Below the pieces are notes generated by a model, which worked only from the letters and a program-made list of their open reading frames with translations, made no database searches and was not told the origin of the DNA. Of a DNA stretch of 64,000 bases, positions 6,508-59,152 are shown in pieces. The stretch covers positions 1-64,000 of the forward strand of contig JADHYV010000083.1 of the NCBI GenBank assembly GCA_027604705.1, read 5' to 3'. Both the position numbers and the translations under genes were made by a program. This DNA is from Allomyces arbusculus. Lineage: Eukaryota > Blastocladiomycota > Blastocladiomycetes > Blastocladiales > Blastocladiaceae. The stretch's first letter is position 1. Every line of letters starts with the position of its first letter.

Positions 6508-8114
6508 TCACCGCTTGGCCTTCCCGCCGCTCTGCACCGACAAATCCTTGAGCTTGAGCGGCGTAGACAAGGTCGCGCGGCGGTACTTTTTCCCGTGCTC
6601 AGCCGGCAGCCCGAGCACGGCCATTTGCGAGTTCGACATGGACGCGACCGTCGCGCCGACGGCCTGCGCGACCTGCATGAGCTGCGAGGCCGACTGGTTG
6701 AAGAGCGGGACCAAGTCATCGAGCGTCACGGCAAACGACTCCAAGTGCAGGGCGACGACCATCGCATAGCATGCGAGTTTGGTCTTGGACTGTGGCGAGA
6801 CGGTCGCGCGCGTCTGACCATTCGGTTTCGCGACCTGGTGGCAGAACTGCGCCGTCATATCGAACGCCACGTTCGATGGGCACTTGAGATACTTGCTCAG
6901 ATCCGTGTGCGACCGCACCTGCGCGTCCTTGGCATTCATCATCTTGACGAGGTAGTGCAGGTAGAGGTAGAGCACCATGCGCAGGACCACGGGCGCGGCT
7001 GGTTTCACGTTGGGCGTCACGTTGCGCAGCGTGCCCAACAGACCGCGCGCAATGAACTCGGGCACCGACTCTTCCAGGACGTTCGTCACGACATCGGCCA
7101 GGTCGCTGTTGGGCTTGACGGCCGCCGCCAGCTTCTTGGCCACGCCCTCAAGCGCGATGCGCGACGACTTCAGCAACAACTTATCGATCGGGTAGGCGAG
7201 CGCCGGATCGTCGGTCTCCGTGTCGTGTGGCGGACGCGGGTCTGCGAGGCTGTCGAAAGTGACGGGTTCGGCCGCGACGGCCTCGGCCATGGCCACGTCG
7301 CTCTCGCCAACGGCCGCTTGCAGCGCCGTCGACGAGGCGTCGAGCGAGTCGGTGTTGACAAGATTGCGCTCGATGGCACGAATCTGTTGCCGCCGCGCCT
7401 TGGTGCCAAACACCTCGCCGAGCTGGTTCTTGGCGTCCAAGTACTGTTGTGATGTTGGCAGGACGCAGAGGTCAGCAGCGCTTCGTCGTAGTCGGCGGCA
7501 GAATCCGCCGAGTAGAGCGCAAGGACACGCACGTTGGACCGATCAATCCGCTGCGCGTCAGTGGAATCGACGCCGTAAACGCGCTGCTGCAGCATGAGTG
7601 GTGCCGGAGCCGGAACAAACGATGCCGTCTTGTCCCCCGGCCGCACGACCGCCAAGTACTCGTCGTAGCCAGCCTCACGCGCGCGCGCGCGCATCCACTC
7701 GGCCGACTCGCCATAGTTATCCGCGCGCAGCTGCACAAACTCGCCGTCCGAGACGACGGCGCGGTACTGGTGCTCGCCGCGCTTGGGCTTGTGCACACCG
7801 CACAGCGTAAACTCGCGGCCGTCCGGGAGGTTCAGGCCGTTCTTGTGCACGCGGTAGGCAATGCAAGCGTCGTCGTCGTTCTCCTCGACGTCGGCAAAGT
7901 CGAACGTGATCGCAATCGACCCAGTGGACGGGGTCGAGAAATCGGCCAAGTCTGACTCGGCGTGGAGGGCGCCGTTAAATGGGATGAGAACGGGGGTTGC
8001 CGACGTGTCGATGGCCTGTTCGGGTGCCGCGCCCTGCTTGGCGGCTTTGGCCGCGCGCGCCTTGGCCTTGGTCGCCTTGGCTTGCAGGATGGCCTGCTGC
8101 GTTTTGGAGGACAT
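6508..8114 (-). CDS. RPA49: RNA polymerase I subunit A49 (RPA49/POLR1E)
   Basis: Two exons, 8114-7533 and 7443-6508, give 505 residues. The 89-bp intron (GTGCGT...CAG) joins ...RSN to YLDAKNQLGEVFGTKARR, restoring the conserved LGEVFGTKKARK-type segment that begins the A49 linker. The N-terminal half is the dimerisation region that pairs with A34.5. The C-terminal half holds the tandem winged-helix region. A49 is a stalk-side subunit of Pol I, acting in the nucleolus in initiation and elongation of rRNA. The start at 8114 was chosen because the longer frame upstream is basic and non-conserved. A Lys/Ala-rich stretch follows the start methionine. RRP9, another nucleolar gene, lies elsewhere in the window. 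Confidence 0.85.
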
Positions 8115-9744: not shown

Positions 9745-10703
9745 AGTACGGTTTGGATTGATGGTTTTATTCACTGCACATGCGTGGTAACTTCTGTCGA
9801 AGTGGTCGTGGAAGTTGTGCGTGCAAGGTCGTGCAGGTCCACCTCATCACACATCGAGGCTGCCAGCCCCAAAGGCTGCGATTTGTAGTGCGAGGCGACA
9901 GAGGAGCGGCGAAGCTTGCGGGTGGAGCGCGAGCTAGCGGGGAGGCTTTTCCTGTGTTTCTTTCGTTGAGCGGCTGGCCTGTCAACTCGACATAATCTGA
10001 AGGCGGTGACCACCAGAACTGGTCCCTGCCGCCATCGACATCAAATTTATGATCAATCACACACATGCACACTCCTTCACCCGCACAAAACAGCATCGCT
10101 CAGACTCTCTCTCCCAAACCGAGAAAGCAAAATGGACATGCGCAAAATTGGTCAGCGTTGCAGTTCACTGGTTTACCAACTGCGCGTTTCCTTAGCGCGT
10201 CCCGTTGTGTGAGAGCGAGAGTTGAGGGTCTAGAAATACGTTGTCTTTCGCCTCGTTCATCACAGCTCCGCCCACCTGCGGTCCGTTTCCTGCTGGGTGG
10301 CTGGCGAGGCGCGCTTCCCCCGCGCGCGGGCAAGCGTGTCAACCACCAAAACTCGACGCCGGCCTGCTCAGCAACTTCGGCCATTCATCGGTCGCCCTCC
10401 TTGACGACCTGACGCCTCATCTCAAGAACGCAGCAGCAACTGCAGCAAGAGCTTAACCGACAGCTCCGCCCACTTCAAGTTGGCCTTGCTGCGTGCGCGT
10501 GTCTCGTCCTCTCTCCCCTTCCCCGCATCGCACGCCCGTGTGATCGCGCCCGTTCTGCTCTGTTCGCCGGCCATTGAGCAAGTGATCACAAGCGCGGCCA
10601 CCGCTCTTGCAAGTGTGCTCTACGGACCACTCTCGCTCGTTTGCTCTTCGACTTCCCTCACTTATTTGCTCCACAACGCACCCGACCCGCAACCGCGCCA
10701 AGC
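9745..10703. other. Upstream region of the first GH26-like gene
   Basis: It holds no supported gene. A minus-strand frame at 10013-9771 (80 codons, Arg/Ser-rich) overlaps the 3' side of the crotonase gene's terminator region and has no known family. The promoter of the GH26-like gene must lie in the right half, which is C-rich. Confidence 0.4.
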
Positions 10704-12367
10704 ATGTCCTCGAACATTGGTGCCGGTGGCCTGCTCCCCGGCAAAGTCGCTGTGGTCAAACCCGGTCTCGCATTGTGGAAACGCGTGCTGATCGGGCTCG
10801 TCGCGCTCGTCGCGCTCGCGGCCGCGACCATCGCGATCCTGCACGCAGCCAACGTCGACATGCCGTTCTGGCATGCGCGGAAAGCCGACGCCGACTCGGG
10901 CTCTGCGACGCCCACGGCGACCAACACGGGCGACGCGTCGGCCACGTCGACAAGTACGACGACGACGACCGCGACCCCGACGCCGACGGCAACGCCCGTT
11001 ACGCCCCCCGAGAACGGCGTTCTGTTTGGCGCACATATCTGGGGCGACGGCATCGATTGGGCGCCCAAGTCGCCCGAGGAGTGGAATGGATTGGCGGGTA
11101 CGTTATGCTGTGGCGTGTCAGAGGAGGGATGGCGCGCTTGCCCGGCCGCAATGGCGCTTCGGTGGTTAGGATGGCGCTTGCCGCTCCTGAGCACCGGTTC
11201 ACGAAACCGCAGCTGACCACGTTCCCATCGGTATTAATCATAGGCCGCCAGGGCGCCGGGTTCGGCGCGTTCGTCTACGTCGACACCGAGACCGGGCTCA
11301 AGGACCCGTCCTCGGTTCTCGGCTACGCCGACAAGGTCAAAGCCGTGAACGGCTTTCTGATGCTGACCGTGGAGCCGATGGTGGGCGGGCTCGACATGAT
11401 GACCGACGCCGTGATCAACAAGACCGTCGACATCCTCGCCGAAATCAATCTCAAGAAGTATGTCCCGATTTTGCTGCGGTTCGCGCACGAAATGAACGGC
11501 GCCTGGTACCTGTGGGGCCAAAAGCCCGTCAAGTACCGCGAGACCTGGATTCGGTTCGCAAAAGCCGTCAAGGCGCGCGCGCCCGCAACGAGTTTGGTGT
11601 TTAGTCCGAATACGCCCGTGGGTTACCCGTGGTCCGGCGGGACGGCGGCACCGAAGGGGTCCGCGGATTATCAGGCCATGGATACGAATGGCGACGGGGT
11701 CGTGGATGATAAGGACGATCCGTTTGGGCCGTATTTCCCGGGGGAGGAGGTACGCGGCGACGTTTTGGATCTTGTCCACCCACTCGCTGGATCAGAACGC
11801 TAACCACCGCATCAACTCTGTGATTGCTAGTGGGTCGACTGGATCTCGCTCTCGGTCTTCCATTTCGGCACCTATCCGTGGGGCACCAACACCTACCCGA
11901 ACGCCGACGACGTCTCCAAATTCCTCTTCAACAAGTGGTCAATTGTCGCGCTCGCTAAGCAGTACAAGAAGCCGTTTGGCGTGTTCGAGTGCGGCGCCGT
12001 CTATTACCCGCTCGGCAAGACGCCCGACACGACCTACTCGGCCGTCGCGCGCCGACTCGGGTCAACCGACTTGACCGCGGTCCAGGTGAACGCGGCGCTC
12101 AAGCGCGAGTGGTTCCGGCAACTGGTTGGCAACGACGCGCGCGCCCAGTCGAACGTGAAATTGGTCATGTGGTTCGAAGTGGCCAAGACGGAAGAGGGCG
12201 GACAGGTGCGCGATTTCACCATGTTCAGGGACCCGGAAGTCGCGCGCCAGTTTCGCGTTGATTTCGCGAATTATGCGTTGGTTGGGGCCCCAGGGAACGG
12301 CACGGCCGCGGGGAACGGGACCGTGGCGGCGGGGAACGCGACGGCGACGGCGGCGAGTAAGAGCTGA
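10704..12367 (+). CDS. GH26-like glycosidase, type II membrane protein (copy A)
   Basis: Three exons, 10704-11097, 11244-11749 and 11831-12367, give 478 residues; the introns are 146 and 81 bp. A short basic cytosolic N-terminus is followed by one membrane helix (about residues 28-50) and a Ser/Thr/Pro linker, then the catalytic domain. Family GH26 (beta-mannanases and relatives) is suggested by RFAHEMNGAWY, where Glu214 would be the acid/base. GVFECG places Glu353 as the candidate nucleophile, and MWFEVAK follows near the end. A calcium-loop-like motif, DTNGDGVVDDKD, interrupts the fold after YPWSGG. The product is probably surface or cell-wall directed. A related gene lies inverted at 19536-21424 and shares both intron positions. 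Substrate specificity cannot be read from the sequence. Confidence 0.75.
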
Positions 12368-19535: not shown

Positions 19536-21424
19536 CTACCCACCGAGTGCGAGCGCGTAGGACCCGAGGTCGCCCTTGACGCGCGCGGCTACATCGCCAT
19601 CCCTCGTCAGCGCAAAGTCGCGGACGAGCCCGCCCTCTTCAGTCTTGAGCACCTCGAACCACATGAGCAGTGCGATCTTGGACCGCGCGCGCTGCGCCGA
19701 GTCGAGCAGGAGCTTGAGCCACGCGCGCTTGATCGCCGCGTCAATTGCCGTCGCCGGCACATTGGCCGGTGCCGGTGCCGGGTCGGCCGTGGGCGTGGGC
19801 GTCGCTGGCTTGGTAGGCTCGCCCGGCTTGGCCGGCTCCACGACAATCGGTGTCGGCTTGGACGAATCCGCCTTGGTCGACGTCGTCTTGGTGCTGCTGG
19901 GTTTAGCGGGCGGATCCGGATTGGTGCCGTTGGTCGACACTTGCCGCTTGCGCAGTTGTGCGGCAACGGCCGACTTGGTGCCAGCCGGCGTGTTGCCCTT
20001 GGGGTAGTACGAAGCGCCGCCTTCAAAGACACCAAAGGGCTTGTTGTACTTGTTCGCGAATGCAACAATCGAGCCTTGCCGGTTGAACAGGAAATTGTCG
20101 GCCATTTCGGACGTCGGGAGCTCGTTGTTGCCCCACGTGTTGCCGTACCAAAACGCCGACACGCCGATCCAGTCGACCCACTAGAAGCGGCAGCAATGAT
20201 CAGGTCAGTTGCGGCAACGGCAGAAACGATTGAGGGTGAAGAGGCACGTACGTCGGACCCCGGGTAGTACGGCAGGAACGGATCGTCGAGCGCATTGACG
20301 GTGCCGTCGCCATTGGTGTCCATGGCGCGGTAGTCGGCCGAGCCGGGCTTGGCGCCAAACGACCCGGACCACGGGTATCCCAAAGGTGCGTTGGGAGCCC
20401 ACACGAGCGTCGTCGACGGCGCCTTGGCACGAACAGCCTTGGCGAACCGGATCCACGTCGACTTGTACTTGTCGGGCTGTTGCGACCACGAGTACCAGAT
20501 GCCTATCGTGTGAGACGCAGGAGTTGGTCAGCGTCGGGGTGGTCGTTGCGTGGCGAGGCTGGAATCACGTGCGCACCGTTCATTTCGTGCGCGAACCGCA
20601 CAAACAACGGCAGCCCGTACTTGGTGTTGATGGTCTGCAGGAGCTCGGCGATCTTGTCGTTGACAGAGTCGGTCATCATGTCAAGGCCGCCGGGCGTCGG
20701 CTCGACGGTCAGCATCATGAACGTGGCCTTGGCCGCACGCACTTGTTCAGCGTGCTTGAGGATCGCGTCCGGGTCGCGCAGGCCCGAGTTGGCATCGACA
20801 TAGACAAATGCGGAGAAGCCCGACGCCGTGATACCTATTGATTTGCATGCTGGTCAGGACTTGACCCATGATCCACAGCGAATTCAGAGAAAATAAGCGC
20901 AACGAACCGAGCTTCGAATTAAATTCACTCGGCGACGGCGGGAACCAGTCGGCGCCGTCCCCCCACACGTGAGCACCAAAGTAGACGCCCTTGGACGACG
21001 GCATGATGGGCGTCGGACTCGGCGGGACCACAGTCGTTGACGTGCTCGTTGTCGAGGTAGTATCGGCCGTACTTGAGCTCGTGTCCGTGGGGCCGGCCGT
21101 CGAGGTCGGTACGGTGCCCGCCTCGTCCTTGTTGACGGGCCAAAACGGCAACGATACTTTGGCAGCATGCAGGATCAAAATTGTCGCGCCGGCGAGCACG
21201 ACGAGCGCCGCGGTCGCAAGCGCGGCGCGCTTGATCCATAATGTCGATTTACCGGCCGCGGCGGCCGCGGATTTGGTCCCGGCCACGGTGGCCATGCTGG
21301 TGCGTGCAGTCGAAGCTTCAAGCCGGTGCGGGGTCGGCGCAGCAGGGTCGTCGGCGGGCGTCAGGGGCACCCACGAATATGCAGCGGCAGCACCAGCGGG
21401 GGCGGGCGTGCTGGAGTGGCCCAT
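19536..21424 (-). CDS. GH26-like glycosidase, type II membrane protein (copy B)
   Basis: Four exons, 21424-20908, 20834-20577, 20502-20252 and 20180-19536, give 556 residues; the introns are 73, 74 and 71 bp. The layout matches copy A: a cytosolic N-terminus, one membrane helix, a Ser/Thr linker, then the catalytic domain with RFAHEMNG (Glu256), the calcium-loop-like DTNGDGTVNALD, and GVFEGG (Glu395). Both candidate catalytic residues sit at the same offset from the shared introns as in copy A. Differences are an extra intron directly after HEMN and a Pro/Lys/Thr-rich insertion of about 70 residues after the nucleophile loop. The two genes are inverted paralogues about 7 kb apart. Confidence 0.75.
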
Positions 21425-37731: not shown

Positions 37732-38673
37732 ATGTCGGTCCCATACAAGACGCGCGAACAATGGGCGCGTACCGTCAAGATCGTCCTTCTCGGCGACGCC
37801 GCGACCGGCAAAACGTCCCTCGTCAACCGTTTCTGCTCGGACCGGTTCACGATCCACTACACTCCAACCCCTGGGCTCGAAGTCGCCGAGAAAGTCGTCA
37901 AGTTACCGGGCAACATTCCGTGCCTGATCCAGATCTGGGACGTGGCCGGCAACATGCTGACCTCGCGCGGACTCGCGTCGGCGCTGCACGACGCAGACGC
38001 CGTCCTGCTCGTCTACGACGTGACGATTCCGAGCACGTACAAGGCCGTTAGGCAGTGGCTGACCATGGTCGAGGCGATTTGTGGGGATGCGAGCGTGCAG
38101 GGGCTCGGGATGGCGGGGAGGGCGCGGCCCGGGGCGGCGGACGCCCTCGTGCACCACCATTTTCATCATCGGAATGGGAACGCAGGTGGGGTTACGGGCG
38201 TGGGGGTCGCAACGGTCGGCGCGACGCTCGTGGGAGGCGCCGTAGGTGTAGGAGTCAGTGGGGTCGGGAATTCGGGCAATAACGGTAACAAGAGCGTCGG
38301 TGCGAGGACACGCGTGCCGCTCGTGTGTCTTGTCGGGACCAAGAGTACGATCTTGCTTCCTCTCACGCGCATTTTCTCCACCTTCACTGACTTCGTGCCA
38401 GCCGACGCGACCAACCTACGGATGGTCACCCCGCAACAACACTTGCTACTCGTCGACGAATTCGACCTGCTCTCCTACTTTACGTCGGCGCGCGTTGCCG
38501 AGACCGTCTACACTATGTTTCTCGAGATTGCCGGCCGATTGTTGGGTGTTGCGCGCGACGAGGTACAAGTCAAGACGATTGCGCGCCGGCTTTCGGCGGC
38601 CTCGCTCGTGCAGTTGTCGGGCATGGGCAAGCGCAAGCGCAACCAAGTGGTGCGACAATGCATGATTCAGTGA
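37732..38673 (+). CDS. RAB28: RAB28-like small GTPase with CAAX end
   Basis: Two exons, 37732-38344 and 38402-38673, give 294 residues. The 57-bp intron is a multiple of three with no stop, so an unspliced reading looks intact but lacks a proper G4 motif. Removing it gives VGTKTD, the (N/T)KxD motif. G1 is GDAATGKT; G3 is WDVAG, with Asn where Gln61 usually lies. LPGNIP..IQIWD and LGVARDE near the end match RAB28, as does the C-terminal CMIQ, a prenylation box like human RAB28's CAVQ. A Gly/Val/His-rich insertion of about 65 residues sits before the G4 motif. RAB28 is a cargo of the BBSome and intraflagellar transport in cilia. Confidence 0.78.
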   Translation: MSVPYKTREQWARTVKIVLLGDAATGKTSLVNRFCSDRFTIHYTPTPGLEVAEKVVKLPGNIPCLIQIWDVAGNMLTSRGLASALHDADAVLLVYDVTIPSTYKAVRQWLTMVEAICGDASVQGLGMAGRARPGAADALVHHHFHHRNGNAGGVTGVGVATVGATLVGGAVGVGVSGVGNSGNNGNKSVGARTRVPLVCLVGTKSTILLPLTRIFSTFTDFVPADATNLRMVTPQQHLLLVDEFDLLSYFTSARVAETVYTMFLEIAGRLLGVARDEVQVKTIARRLSAASLVQLSGMGKRKRNQVVRQCMIQ

Positions 38674-41250: not shown

Positions 41251-43177
41251 ATGCTCTCGGCTCTGCGCAGCACCATGCCGCGCGCCGGCGCCGTCACGCG
41301 CATCGCCGTCTGCTTTGCGCCGCGCGCCGCGGCCTTCCACGCGGGCCGCCCGCTCGCGCGCGCGTCGGCCGTCGACGAAGTCGAGCGCTTTGTCGACAAC
41401 ACCGACGTCCTGATTGTCGGTGCCGGTCCCGCAGGTCTCTCGGCCGCGATCCGGTTCAAGCAGCTCGCGAATGACGCGGGCAAGGACTTGCGCGTCATGG
41501 TGATTGAAAAGGGCGCCGAAGTCGGTGCGTACCCCACCACCTGCACTGCGCCCCGTCGGTCGTGTCCGGAACGATGGATACTGACCGGTCCGCACCGAAC
41601 TAGGCGCACACATGCTTTCCGGCAACGTGCTCGAGCCGCGCGCGCTCAACGAGCTGATCCCGGACTGGAAGGCCAAGGGCGCGCCGCTCAACACGCCCGT
41701 CTCGCGTGACAAAATGTCGTTCCTGACCAAGACCTCGGCGATCCCGATTCCGCACCCGCCGCAAATGCACAACCAGGGCAACTACATTATCTCGCTCAAC
41801 CAGTTTGTCCGGTGGCTCGGCGAACAGGCCGAGGAACTCGGCGTCGAAGTTTACCCGGGGTTCGCGGGCGCCAAGCCGTTGCTCTCGGCCGACGGGCAGC
41901 ACGTCGTGGGCGTGCAGGTCGGCGATGTCGGGATTGGCAAGGACGGTAACCCGACTGATAACTACGAGCCAGGCATGCAGATTCGCGCGCCCGTGACGAT
42001 TTTCGCCGAAGGGTGCCACGGGTCGTTGACGAAGCAAATGATTCGCCACTTCAAGCTGCGCGACGAAGGCAAGTTCCAGACGTACGGGATCGGGCTCAAG
42101 GAAGTGTGGGAAGTGCCCAAGGAGAACCACGAAATGGGCCTGGTCGCGCACTCGATTGGCTGGCCGACCGATTTCAAGACCTACCAGGGGTCGTTCCTTT
42201 ACCACTGGACTGACGCGCCCGAGAACGGCCGGTACCTCGTCTCGCTCGGCATGGTCGTCGGGCTCGACTACTGGAACGTGAACCTGCGGCCCTACATGGA
42301 GTTCCAGCGGTGGAAGCACCACCCGACGATTGCCAAGGTGCTGCAAGGCGGCACCTGCATCTCGTACGGCGCGCGCGCGCTCAATGAAGGAGGCCTCCAG
42401 TCGCTCCCGCGGCTCGCGTTCCCTGGCGGTGCCCTCGTCGGCTGTGCCGCCGGGTTCATGAACGTGCCCAAGATCAAGGGCACGCACACGGCCATGAAGT
42501 CGGGTATGCTCGCGGCCGAGGCCGCTTTCGCGGAGTTGCAGGACAAAGAGTCAGTCGCTGCCGAGGAAGAGCCCGCCGTGGAGCCGCTGCACCTGCAATC
42601 TTACCAGACGGCTTTCGAGAAATCGTGGATTTACGACGAACTCTACCAGGTGCGCAACGTGCGCCCGTCGTTCCACAACCCGCTCGGTCTCTACGGCGGG
42701 ATTATGTGGTCCGGGCTCGACACGCTCTTCCTCAAGGGCCGCGTGCCCTTCACCTTCTCGCACGGCGCGCCGGACCACACGACGTTGTTGCCCAAGTCCG
42801 AGTGCCCGCCGATTGAGTACCCGAAACCCGACGGCGTGCTGTCGTTTGACTTGCTCGAGAACGTTGCGCGCACGGGCACCAACCACAACCATAACCAGCC
42901 CGCGCACTTGCGCCCGCGCGACCCGGAGGTGCAGGTCAAGCAGAACCTGCCCAAGTACGACGGGCCCGAGGCCAAGTTCTGCCCCGCGGGCGTCTACGAG
43001 TACGTCGAGACGGAGCAGCCCTACACGCTGTCGGACGGCACGCAGGCCAACAAGAAATTTGTGATCAATGCGCAAAACTGCATTCACTGCAAGACGTGCG
43101 ATATCAAGGACCCGGCGCAGAACATTGATTGGACGACGCCCGAGGGGTCGGGTGGCCCGAACTACGTCTTGACGTAA
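41251..43177 (+). CDS. ETFDH: Electron transfer flavoprotein-ubiquinone oxidoreductase
   Basis: Two exons, 41251-41524 and 41604-43177, give 615 residues; the intron is 79 bp. An Arg/Ala-rich matrix-targeting peptide precedes the FAD-binding [18 protein letters not shown]. The ubiquinone-binding and membrane-surface region follows ([16 protein letters not shown]). The C-terminal ferredoxin-like 4Fe-4S domain holds CPAGVYE and [13 protein letters not shown]. The enzyme passes electrons from ETF to ubiquinone at the inner mitochondrial membrane and serves fatty-acid and amino-acid oxidation. The length is normal for the family (about 610-630). Confidence 0.93.
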
Positions 43178-56195: not shown

Positions 56196-57066
56196 GGCTC
56201 CGTTATTTCCTTTGCTCGTTCCTCGCTCTGCGGTTGAAAATACGGTTGGTAACCGGCTGCTGTTGTCGTCCTCCTGCGCGCCCTCCCCAACTCACTTTTT
56301 GTTTTATGTTTGCTTGTTCGGCCTGCGCGTATCGCGGTGTGCCGTTGAAACTGGATCCCCCCCTTTGGTGAAATGTGGTCAAATCTGTTTTGTATTTGGT
56401 GCATTCTTGGTTCTGCCCTCCTTCTTTCCCACCTCGTCCCCGTCTTCGGCCCTAGGCAGAGCTGACCGAGTCCGTCGACACAACCATGACGAGATCCGTT
56501 CGTTGCTGTAGTTCGGCCGAGGGTACGGTTGATGGACTTGGAACGGGGTGGACGAATCTTTTGTGTGCCTTTGAACGTGCAACGAAGACGAACGTAAAAA
56601 AAACAATGAAATTGAAATCCCCCCCCCCCCCCCTACCCCATAACATTGAAATGAAGTGCCAGCAGAAGAACGCGTCCGCCGCTCGTTCGGCGAGCGAGCG
56701 AGCGATCGCATGATATAGCTGTAACGCACGTTGGGGATGGAATAATGGAGCCCAGTGCTTCGTGATAAGCTGATGCGAAGGCGCATTGGGAACTTAAATG
56801 GAAGCTGGTAGTGAGAGGTATCATGATATACACGCACGAGACGACATGTCTGACAGCGTCCACGGCGTCGAACGGATCTCTGAAAGCGTTAGAGCCCGCT
56901 CTCCTAACATGAAAAATATAGCAAAGGCTTACGGCCAGAACAATCGCGCGCACAAGGAAATACATTATTTGCAAGCGAAAATAGAACACGCCCAGCGACC
57001 CGACAGCGCTAGCGCGCCGCGAGGACGGACCTAGGAAATGCACCTAGCCCCACTTGACAAACGAGC
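56196..57066. other. Convergent gap acyl-CoA synthetase / EFL
   Basis: 871 bp between stop codons, less GC-rich than the exons, with a C15 run at 56619-56633. Both 3' UTRs lie here; no gene is seen. Confidence 0.5.
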
Positions 57067-58655
57067 TTACTTGTGCTCCACAGCGACAACCTTGCCGAGC
57101 ATGACGGCCGTGTTGCCATCGAGGAAGGCAATACGCGACAGACCCTCGCAGTTCTGGAACGAGTCGACAACGAGCGGCTGGATGGGCTCGAAGACGACCT
57201 CGGCGGCCTCGTTGGCCTTGAGCGAGTGCGGGCCCTCCATCTTTTTGCGACCGGTCTCCTTGCCGATCTTCCAGTTGATCTTGGTGATCTTGCAGGCCGA
57301 GCGACCGCAGCGGACGAAGCCGATGGGCGAGTAGCCGGGCTTGACCTCCGAGGGGATGTCGAGCGTCTGGACCTGGGCGGTGAACGACTTGACGGCCTTG
57401 AGCGTCGAGTCCTCCTTGTAGATCATGACGTCACCGACGCGGGGCATGTTGTTCTTGTCGAGACCCTTGATGTTCATGCCGACGTTGTCGCCAGTCTCAC
57501 CCTTCTCGACCTTCTTGTGGTGCATCTCGACCGTGAAGACCTTGCCGGCGCACGGCGTGGCCGACGTGTGCGTGGGCAGGAAGACGACATCCTTGTTGGT
57601 CGTGACGATACCCTGCTCGACACGGCCGGCAAGCACATCTCCGACACCCTTGATCTTGTAGATACCCGAGATAGGCACGCGCATGGCGGCCGTCGACTTG
57701 CGCGGCGGCAGCTCGGCGAAGTCGTTGAGGGCGTTGAGCAGCGTCACGATCATGATGTCCTTGCCCGAGAGCGACTTGACCTTCTGGCCGTTCCACCACG
57801 TCATCTTGTCCGACTTCTTGAGCAGGTTGTCACCCATCCAGCCCGAGATCGGGATGACCGGGACCGAACCCTCGACGAAGTCCTTCTTCCAGCCCGTCTT
57901 GACGAGCATGTCCTTCATCTCAGCGGCGATTTCGTCGTAGCGCTCCTTCTTGTAGGGACCAGCCGGGTCCGAGTCCATCTTGTTGACACCGACAACGAGC
58001 TGCTTGACACCGAGCAGGTTGAGCAGGCGAGCGTGCTGGCGCGTCTGGCCCTGGATTTCGCCGGCCTTGTGGTCACCCTTCTGGATGGCCGTCGTGAAGT
58101 TACCGTCGGCGGGGACCATGAGCAGGGCGACATCGGCCTGAGCGGCACCCGAGATCATGTTCTTGATGAAATCGCGGTGACCGGGCGCGTCAATGATGGT
58201 GTAGTGCCAGCGGTCCGTGAAGAACTCCTTGGTCGTGCACGCGATCGTGACACCACGGGCGCGCTCCTCCTTCTGACGGTCCATGTAGAACGCGAAGGCG
58301 AACGACGACTTGCCGAGGGCATCGGCCTCCTGGCGGAGCTTCTCCATCTCACGCTCGGGGATACCTTTTGATTGAGGAAACGGCGTGGGTCAGGAACGAT
58401 CGCTCGGAGTGCGATGGGCGATGGAGAGAGGGACGGCATCGAGCACGGGCCGTCCACGCGCGCGAGCACCATCGACCAATGACACCGACGACCGTGCGTC
58501 ACAGCCCCCCCTCACCAAGAATTTGAACGCGCGTGCGAGCCAGAAGGAGCACACATACCGCCAAGCTCGAAGAGCAGACGGCCCGTCGTGGTCGACTTGC
58601 CCGAGTCGACGTGACCGCAGATGACGATCGAAAGATGCGGCTTGCCCTGCGACAT
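57067..58655 (-). CDS. EFL: EFL, elongation factor-like GTPase (replaces EF-1alpha)
   Basis: Two exons, 58655-58559 and 58364-57067, give 464 residues; the 194-bp intron is the longest in the window. It has the translational GTPase motifs [21 protein letters not shown] and NKMD. It is EFL and not EF-1alpha: [18 protein letters not shown] replaces the GHLIYKCGGID stretch. [19 protein letters not shown] replaces the AWVLDKLKAERERGITID type. The extra [20 protein letters not shown] insertion (key word HKAGEIQGQ) and [16 protein letters not shown] are also EFL marks. EFL is thought to deliver aminoacyl-tRNA to the ribosome in lineages that lost EF-1alpha. Strong codon bias and a TATA box just upstream fit high expression. 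Confidence 0.92.
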
Positions 58656-59152
58656 GGTGAATAGGTTGCTGCTCTTGGTGGGATGCGAGAGAGGGAGAGC
58701 ACGTCGGGCCGCGGGTGCGTGCCGGGATTTATACGTTGGCGGGCCAGTGTGTGGGTTTGCGCGTCCACGTCCTTCTCGCTCGTTCTTGCTTGCATGTGTG
58801 GCGACAAGCTTGCAAGAAGGGCCCCACGCCCAGGGCTTTGCCGCGTGGGGCGTCGGTGCACGTGCCACGCACTTTTCCGCAACCAATCATCTCAAGCAGG
58901 TCACGAGACGGGTTGCCAGCCCCGCGTCCAACTCATTTTGAAGAGACAGGTGACTCGCTTTAAGAGAAACGACATGAGTGACGGGTTTCTGAGCCATTGT
59001 TTCTCACCGCAGATTTTTTGACTGATCGCGTCCTGAGAAGAACATCGTCGCAACAGTCATTTTGCTTCAACGCCCAAAGACGTACCACGCCCGACTGCAA
59101 ATTGGGCCTCACGCACACACCGCGCTGCAAGCAATCCGAAACACTCAGCAGC
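58656..59152. promoter_or_regulatory. Divergent promoter region EFL / small membrane protein
   Basis: 497 bp holding the EFL TATA box on the minus strand. No clear element for the plus-strand gene is visible. Confidence 0.4.
58727..58733 (-). promoter_or_regulatory. TATA box of EFL
   Basis: On the minus strand TATAAAT lies about 72 bp upstream of the EFL ATG (58655), inside GC-rich DNA. Position and sequence are those of a strong core promoter. Confidence 0.55.

Follow-up and report, generated by a model that had tools for sequence, protein, structure and literature searches.

An EFL gene pair beside two divergent EF-1alpha-derived paralogs in the genome of Allomyces arbusculus

Among the closest described systems, EFL was reported in 2006 from the expressed sequences of Blastocladiella emersonii (PMC1550239), and a degrading eEF1A was described in Allomyces macrogynus in 2014 (Atkinson et al., PMC3938643). 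In Spizellomyces punctatus and Basidiobolus ranarum, EFL stands beside a divergent EF-1alpha, for which a remodelling to auxiliary roles was proposed (Kamikawa et al. 2013, PMC3699394). The occurrence of EFL together with undetected eEF1B-alpha is also a pattern reported by Atkinson et al.

We analysed a 64,000-nucleotide stretch of the Allomyces arbusculus genome, here called the window, in which an initial annotation had recognized an EFL gene “instead of EF-1alpha”, and we compared this locus with the rest of the assembly and with the systems above.

The EFL gene in the window

The gene is encoded on the minus strand at exactly the annotated coordinates, and our model gives it a single intron and a protein of 464 residues (Table 1). 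The four stretches that the initial annotation had quoted as EFL-specific were all located in the predicted translation, one of them (GRLLFELGG) with its last codon split by the intron. Besides the genes recognized by Pfam in the window, an open reading frame at 19607-20404 was noticed by eye to contain a stretch resembling the glycosyl hydrolase family 26 piece. Positions 56619-56633, which lie downstream of EFL, are 15 consecutive C, and the intron of the C17 gene described below has a comparable stretch of C. The G+C content of the window was 54-72% in 2-kb steps, and an Rfam scan of the 64-kb window gave nothing at gathering scores.

Table 1 Features of the window and related genes elsewhere in the genome (G000, this assembly; C, contig).
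Feature	Position	Strand	Basis
EFL gene, ATG to stop	window 57067..58655	minus	gene model and 464-aa translation, diagnostic sites, tree and AU tests
EFL exon 1, 97 nt, P-loop GHVDSGKST	window 58559..58655	minus	gene model
EFL intron, 194 nt, GTATGT...CAAAAG (GT...AG)	window 58365..58558	minus	gene model; splice predicted
EFL exon 2 with stop codon	window 57067..58364	minus	gene model, ORF translation
TATA-like box TATAAATC, 78 nt 5' of ATG	window 58726..58733	minus	sequence and motif scan; putative function
RNA polymerase I subunit A49	window 6508-7440		Pfam
Glycosyl hydrolase family 26 piece	window 10607-11803		Pfam
Ras-family GTPase	window 37732-38673		Pfam
ETF-ubiquinone oxidoreductase	window 41612-43177		Pfam
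Second EFL gene, identical 464-aa protein	G000:C47:111969-110382	minus	genome search, alignment
EF-1alpha derivative C4, 2 exons, 485 aa	G000:C4:770387-768830	minus	spliced model
EF-1alpha derivative C17, 2 exons, 665 aa	G000:C17:96638-98731	plus	spliced model

The diagnostic sites of the protein were read in an alignment to yeast eEF1A, taking the EFL/eEF1A differences listed in section 4 of Atkinson et al. (PMC3938643) as criteria for EFL sites. The window protein carries the EFL state at both D35 (P) and T106 (A) of yeast eEF1A. Between G2 and G3 it has ACTTKE in place of DIALWK, which agrees in five of six letters, the final one being different, with the EFL consensus aCTTKA given in the same source. 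In domain II, S, G and K replace Q249, D250 and G255, so that QDVYKIGG is changed to SGIYKIKG, and in domain III FVRCGRS stands for DCHTAHI and GN for MR. The C-terminus is short, ending level with residue 442 of the 458-residue yeast chain; this comparison rests on the yeast chain length, as the aligned yeast row itself stops at 444. The GTPase motifs are intact (G1 GHVDSGKS, G3 DAPGHRD, G4 NKMD).

The best solved relatives of the window protein by sequence are eEF1A chains, which its exon-2 open reading frame matches at 1.9e-87, far beyond chance, and none of the best 60 solved chains listed is named EFL. These matches would fit a divergent EF-1alpha rather than EFL, and a divergent Hbs1 or eRF3 also has to be considered. 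However, the protein stayed below the 540.1-bit cut-off of TIGR00483, the EF-1 alpha equivalog profile (345.5 bits for exon 2, 392.1 bits for the spliced protein), and an IQ-TREE tree placed it outside the EF-1alpha group (support 99/97), Hbs1 (100/99) and eRF3 (100/100). The tree had 12 rows, five proteins of this genome and seven references; no other EFL was among the references, so that the tree tested only the exclusion from other clades, and the position of the window protein itself, adjoining Hbs1 plus eRF3, was weakly supported (74/85). AU tests rejected the joining of EFL to yeast and rabbit EF-1alpha (p 0.0053), to the C4 and C17 proteins (p 0.0045), to Hbs1 (p 0.0085) and to eRF3 (p 0.0124), and did not reject a sister relationship of EFL to the four EF-1alpha rows together (p 0.105). 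The same genome also has a separate Hbs1 on contig C124 (443 bits to Hbs1) and a separate eRF3 on contig C96 (617 bits to eRF3). When EFL was searched against other genomes' contigs, its sole relative was one Lokiarchaeota aEF1A with 35% identity, which was taken as the outgroup, and it had no relative among the viral contigs searched. At the present sampling, the tree, the AU tests and the diagnostic residues thus refute the placement inside EF-1alpha, Hbs1 or eRF3 by which the identification was to stand or fall, and the chance that the protein belongs to one of these families seems to us negligible. As judged from its sequence, the window gene is a genuine EFL.

The rhodopsin-guanylyl cyclase fusion is a light receptor of flagellated fungi. 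Elsewhere in the genome we observed two rhodopsin genes with downstream guanylyl cyclase domains (G000:C7:515350-516000 and G000:C15:369892-370536). The best solved matches to the cyclase piece of one of them were 6sir, 6ao9, 6aoa and 5oyh, two of which are named as rhodopsin/guanylyl cyclase fusions. The fusion is known in Blastocladiomycota (PMC4046227) and also in Chytridiomycota and Sanchytriomycota (PMC9616733), and because of this wider occurrence it was dropped as a marker of Blastocladiomycota only. The predicted fusions place the organism among the zoosporic fungi and, taken with the G+C content of the window, make Blastocladiomycota its most probable phylum.

The second EFL copy and codon usage

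The two EFL genes of the assembly differ at 24 of 1395 nucleotides (stop counted), all in third codon positions, giving a dN of 0 and a dS of 0.079, and a 110-nt stretch around exon 1 is 98% identical. The intron of the second copy (193 nt) shares its position with that of the window gene and is largely diverged in sequence. Blastn gave no match between the two introns, while their alignment scored above 299 of 300 mononucleotide shuffles. For the 300 nt upstream of the genes none of 300 such shuffles scored as high, and for the 300 nt downstream 299 of 300 did, indicating no similarity there. Some old similarity may therefore remain in the introns and promoters, or the scores may reflect a composition effect.

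An allelic copy or a large segmental duplication was rejected as the origin of the second gene, because a blastn comparison (E up to 1e-5) of the 50 kb of contig C47 surrounding it with the 64-kb window matched in only two stretches, which are the EFL exons with a few flanking bases. Codon bias alone was likewise rejected as the cause of the near-identity: independent draws from the pair's own codon usage would be expected to differ at ~114 of 464 codons, and 24 were seen. The exons thus look homogenised, for which gene conversion would be the simplest account.

The EFL genes have effective codon numbers of 26.6 and 26.2. The values of ten other sequences, which were hand-picked rather than random and include gene pieces (171 codons for eRF3), span 32.3-45.4; the EF-1alpha derivatives C4 (38.4) and C17 (44.6) are within these ten. 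Together with the copy number and what is known of the family, this codon bias suggests that EFL is the main elongation factor of the organism. The initial annotation had come to the same view from a strong TATA box. That box adds little; in the motif scan the second copy has only CATAAACT at -83. The view is supported by the codon bias, the two gene copies and the undetected eEF1B-alpha.

Conventional EF-1alpha, its exchange factor and two derived paralogs

A genome-wide search for canonical EF-1alpha had been proposed as a check of its replacement by EFL. TIGR00483 gave 22 matches in the genome, scored exon by exon, with none over the cut-off, and the best two were the EFL genes. Since a split gene could miss a cut-off set for the whole protein, the genome was also searched with yeast eEF1A. 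This search gave 18 matches. Two of them, each a 30-residue piece of EFL exon 1, had 58 and 60% identity; apart from them the highest identity was 51%, in C4. Yeast and rabbit eEF1A are 81-87% identical per domain in our alignment, and a conventional EF-1alpha should therefore have stood out. By both searches none was found in the assembly, which consists of 197 contigs, may be incomplete, and could hide split genes from an exon-by-exon search. Among the translational GTPase matches, classification covered EFL, C4, C17:96638-98731, eRF3, Hbs1 and seven scanned pieces: an EF-Tu on C3 (672 bits, where the cut-off is 522), EF-G on C19 and C44, EF-2 type on C15:31257, C1:362416 and C43, and a piece on C17:292696 with SelB-like as its best assignment.

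We could not detect eEF1B-alpha either. The EF1_GNE profile (PF00736) had no match in the genome and did match in four archaeal controls. The yeast eEF1B-alpha domain, identical to 1f60_B, had no match up to E 1, while the similar-sized control domains of eIF1A and eIF5A gave two matches each in the same genome. EF1G, which had no match in this genome or in any control genome, is uninformative alone. The missing eEF1B-alpha, to be read as an absence from the assembly and not as proof of loss, fits a trait associated with EFL.

Absence of EF-1alpha is an associated, non-universal trait and does not define the EFL family. In this genome the clean loss implied by “EFL instead of EF-1alpha” was not borne out: a conventional EF-1alpha is lacking from the matches, but two divergent EF-1alpha-derived genes, C4 and C17, persist beside EFL. 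The genome is thus one of those that Kamikawa et al. 2013 (PMC3699394) call “dual-EF”.

The best solved relative of C4 was rabbit eEF1A with 418.7 bits (archaeal EF1A 327, Hbs1 212, eRF3 195) and that of C17 was yeast eEF1A with 199.6 bits (archaeal EF1A 139). The C17 exons were joined over a 96-nt GC-AG intron, which would bring a TGA into frame if left unspliced. The intron position is common to both genes, between KTG and the tLM(E/Q)AID stretch. In the 12-row tree C4 and C17 form a sister pair (100/99) that falls with the EF-1alphas of yeast and rabbit (99/97); their own branches are 0.45 and 1.13 long, on a common stem of 0.47. Both carry the opisthokont-specific insertion, where GWSRQSKDGTVKTG and GWRRDGKLGEKTG occupy columns that are empty in archaeal EF1A, so that the fungus's own EF-1alpha is their most likely ancestor.

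Neither protein has the intact G1-G4 motifs of a conventional elongation factor. In C4, which is 44-51% identical to yeast eEF1A per domain, the P-loop, DVPGH and NKMD are preserved, but RERGIT of switch I is replaced except for one alignable Thr and the SGW motif reads AGV. The TIGR00483 score of C4 was 420 bits against the cut-off of 540.1. C17 has lost switch I, has DTRGS for DAPGH, so that the GTPase His is gone, and contains long low-complexity insertions rich in proline and serine.

The spliced frames of C4 and C17 have no internal stop over 485 and 665 codons, although stops are rare anyway in such G+C-rich DNA. Over 431 codons the two genes differ at codon positions 1/2/3 by 0.43/0.36/0.55, with the third position nearest to saturation, versus 0.69/0.74/0.64 expected for unrelated sequences. 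Among 348 columns with the same residue in yeast and rabbit, 42 residues common to C4 and C17 depart from the canonical letter. We read the codon-position pattern and these common residues as signs that the proteins remained constrained after their departure from canonical EF-1alpha; the codon-position pattern disfavours neutral decay.

Function of EFL and fate of EF-1alpha

Taking these observations together, we consider it highly probable that EFL, which is encoded by the window gene and its second copy, took over aminoacyl-tRNA delivery, and that the EF-1alpha derivatives no longer elongate and keep a side function. EFL-GTP would bind aminoacyl-tRNA and dock it in the A site, and the intact DAPGHRD/NKMD GTPase core would hydrolyse the GTP. 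Recharging would proceed without eEF1B-alpha, either by self-exchange or through another exchange factor, while C4 and C17 would have given up elongation and retained only a side function of EF-1alpha.

Two other fates of the derivatives have to be weighed. They may be dying, functionless relics, as proposed for Allomyces by Atkinson et al. (PMC3938643), and the long branches after the shared stem, the GC donor required by C17, its lost GTPase His and its long insertions all point that way. This is possible but rather unlikely in our view, as the spliced frames are open, the genes differ less at the first two codon positions than at the third, and the two proteins share non-canonical residues. 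The same constraint, together with a C4 frame that is open over its spliced length, the similarity of C4 to yeast eEF1A in every domain and its retained P-loop, DxxGH and NKMD, could instead indicate a functionally dual fungus, in which a divergent paralog, most likely C4, still delivers some or special aminoacyl-tRNAs beside EFL. Against this stand the replaced RERGIT consensus and the AGV of C4, its ordinary codon bias and the undetected eEF1B-alpha that would have to recharge it, and we regard such a division of labour as improbable.

Within the favoured reading, in which EFL elongates and the derivatives do not, a more specific history can be proposed, and the chances for and against it appear to us evenly balanced. 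After the takeover by EFL and the loss of eEF1B, EF-1alpha would have been remodelled and then duplicated, and both copies would have been kept under selection for a non-elongation task, C17 as a pseudo-GTPase without switch I and the catalytic His. If this is true, C4 and C17 are a natural case in which the side functions of EF-1alpha have been uncoupled from translation, and the pair would offer two natural derivatives for studying these roles apart from elongation.

The finding of EFL is well founded and, for these fungi, largely unremarkable; the useful correction it brings is that EF-1alpha was remodelled rather than simply replaced. Because EFL of Blastocladiella and a decaying eEF1A of Allomyces had already been published (PMC1550239, PMC3938643), the present case is of a known kind; the expectation that it would add a data point on EFL/EF-1alpha exchange holds in that one more fungal genome is added, to a group already known. 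The modestly new part is a duplicated and, by its sequence signatures, apparently still constrained EF-1alpha pair, of which we found no report for a blastoclad in the open-licence literature searched. The case, with EFL doubled, eEF1B-alpha undetected and EF-1alpha turned into two paralogs but not erased, is consistent with two published models, the ratchet (Atkinson et al.) and the remodelling of EF-1alpha (Kamikawa et al.).

Relative to eEF1A (yeast 1f60, rabbit 5lzs), EFL is a three-domain GTPase of the same kind with G1, G3 and G4 intact, but its identity is 43% at most and, in the window protein, the patches that Atkinson et al. name as contacts with eEF1B-alpha bear EFL letters. The EFLs of B. 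emersonii and other fungi belong to the same protein family (PMC1550239, PMC3938643). Compared by published description, the present assembly differs from B. emersonii in that it contains two EFL genes for one identical protein as well as two divergent EF-1alpha paralogs. EFL together with a divergent EF-1alpha that carries the opisthokont insertion is also described for Spizellomyces punctatus and Basidiobolus ranarum (PMC3699394), whereas two EF-1alpha-derived paralogs are present here. Allomyces macrogynus is alike in having EFL and a decaying EF-1alpha (PMC3938643), and, on the same descriptive basis, the present case differs in the signs that C4 and C17 have stayed under coding constraint.
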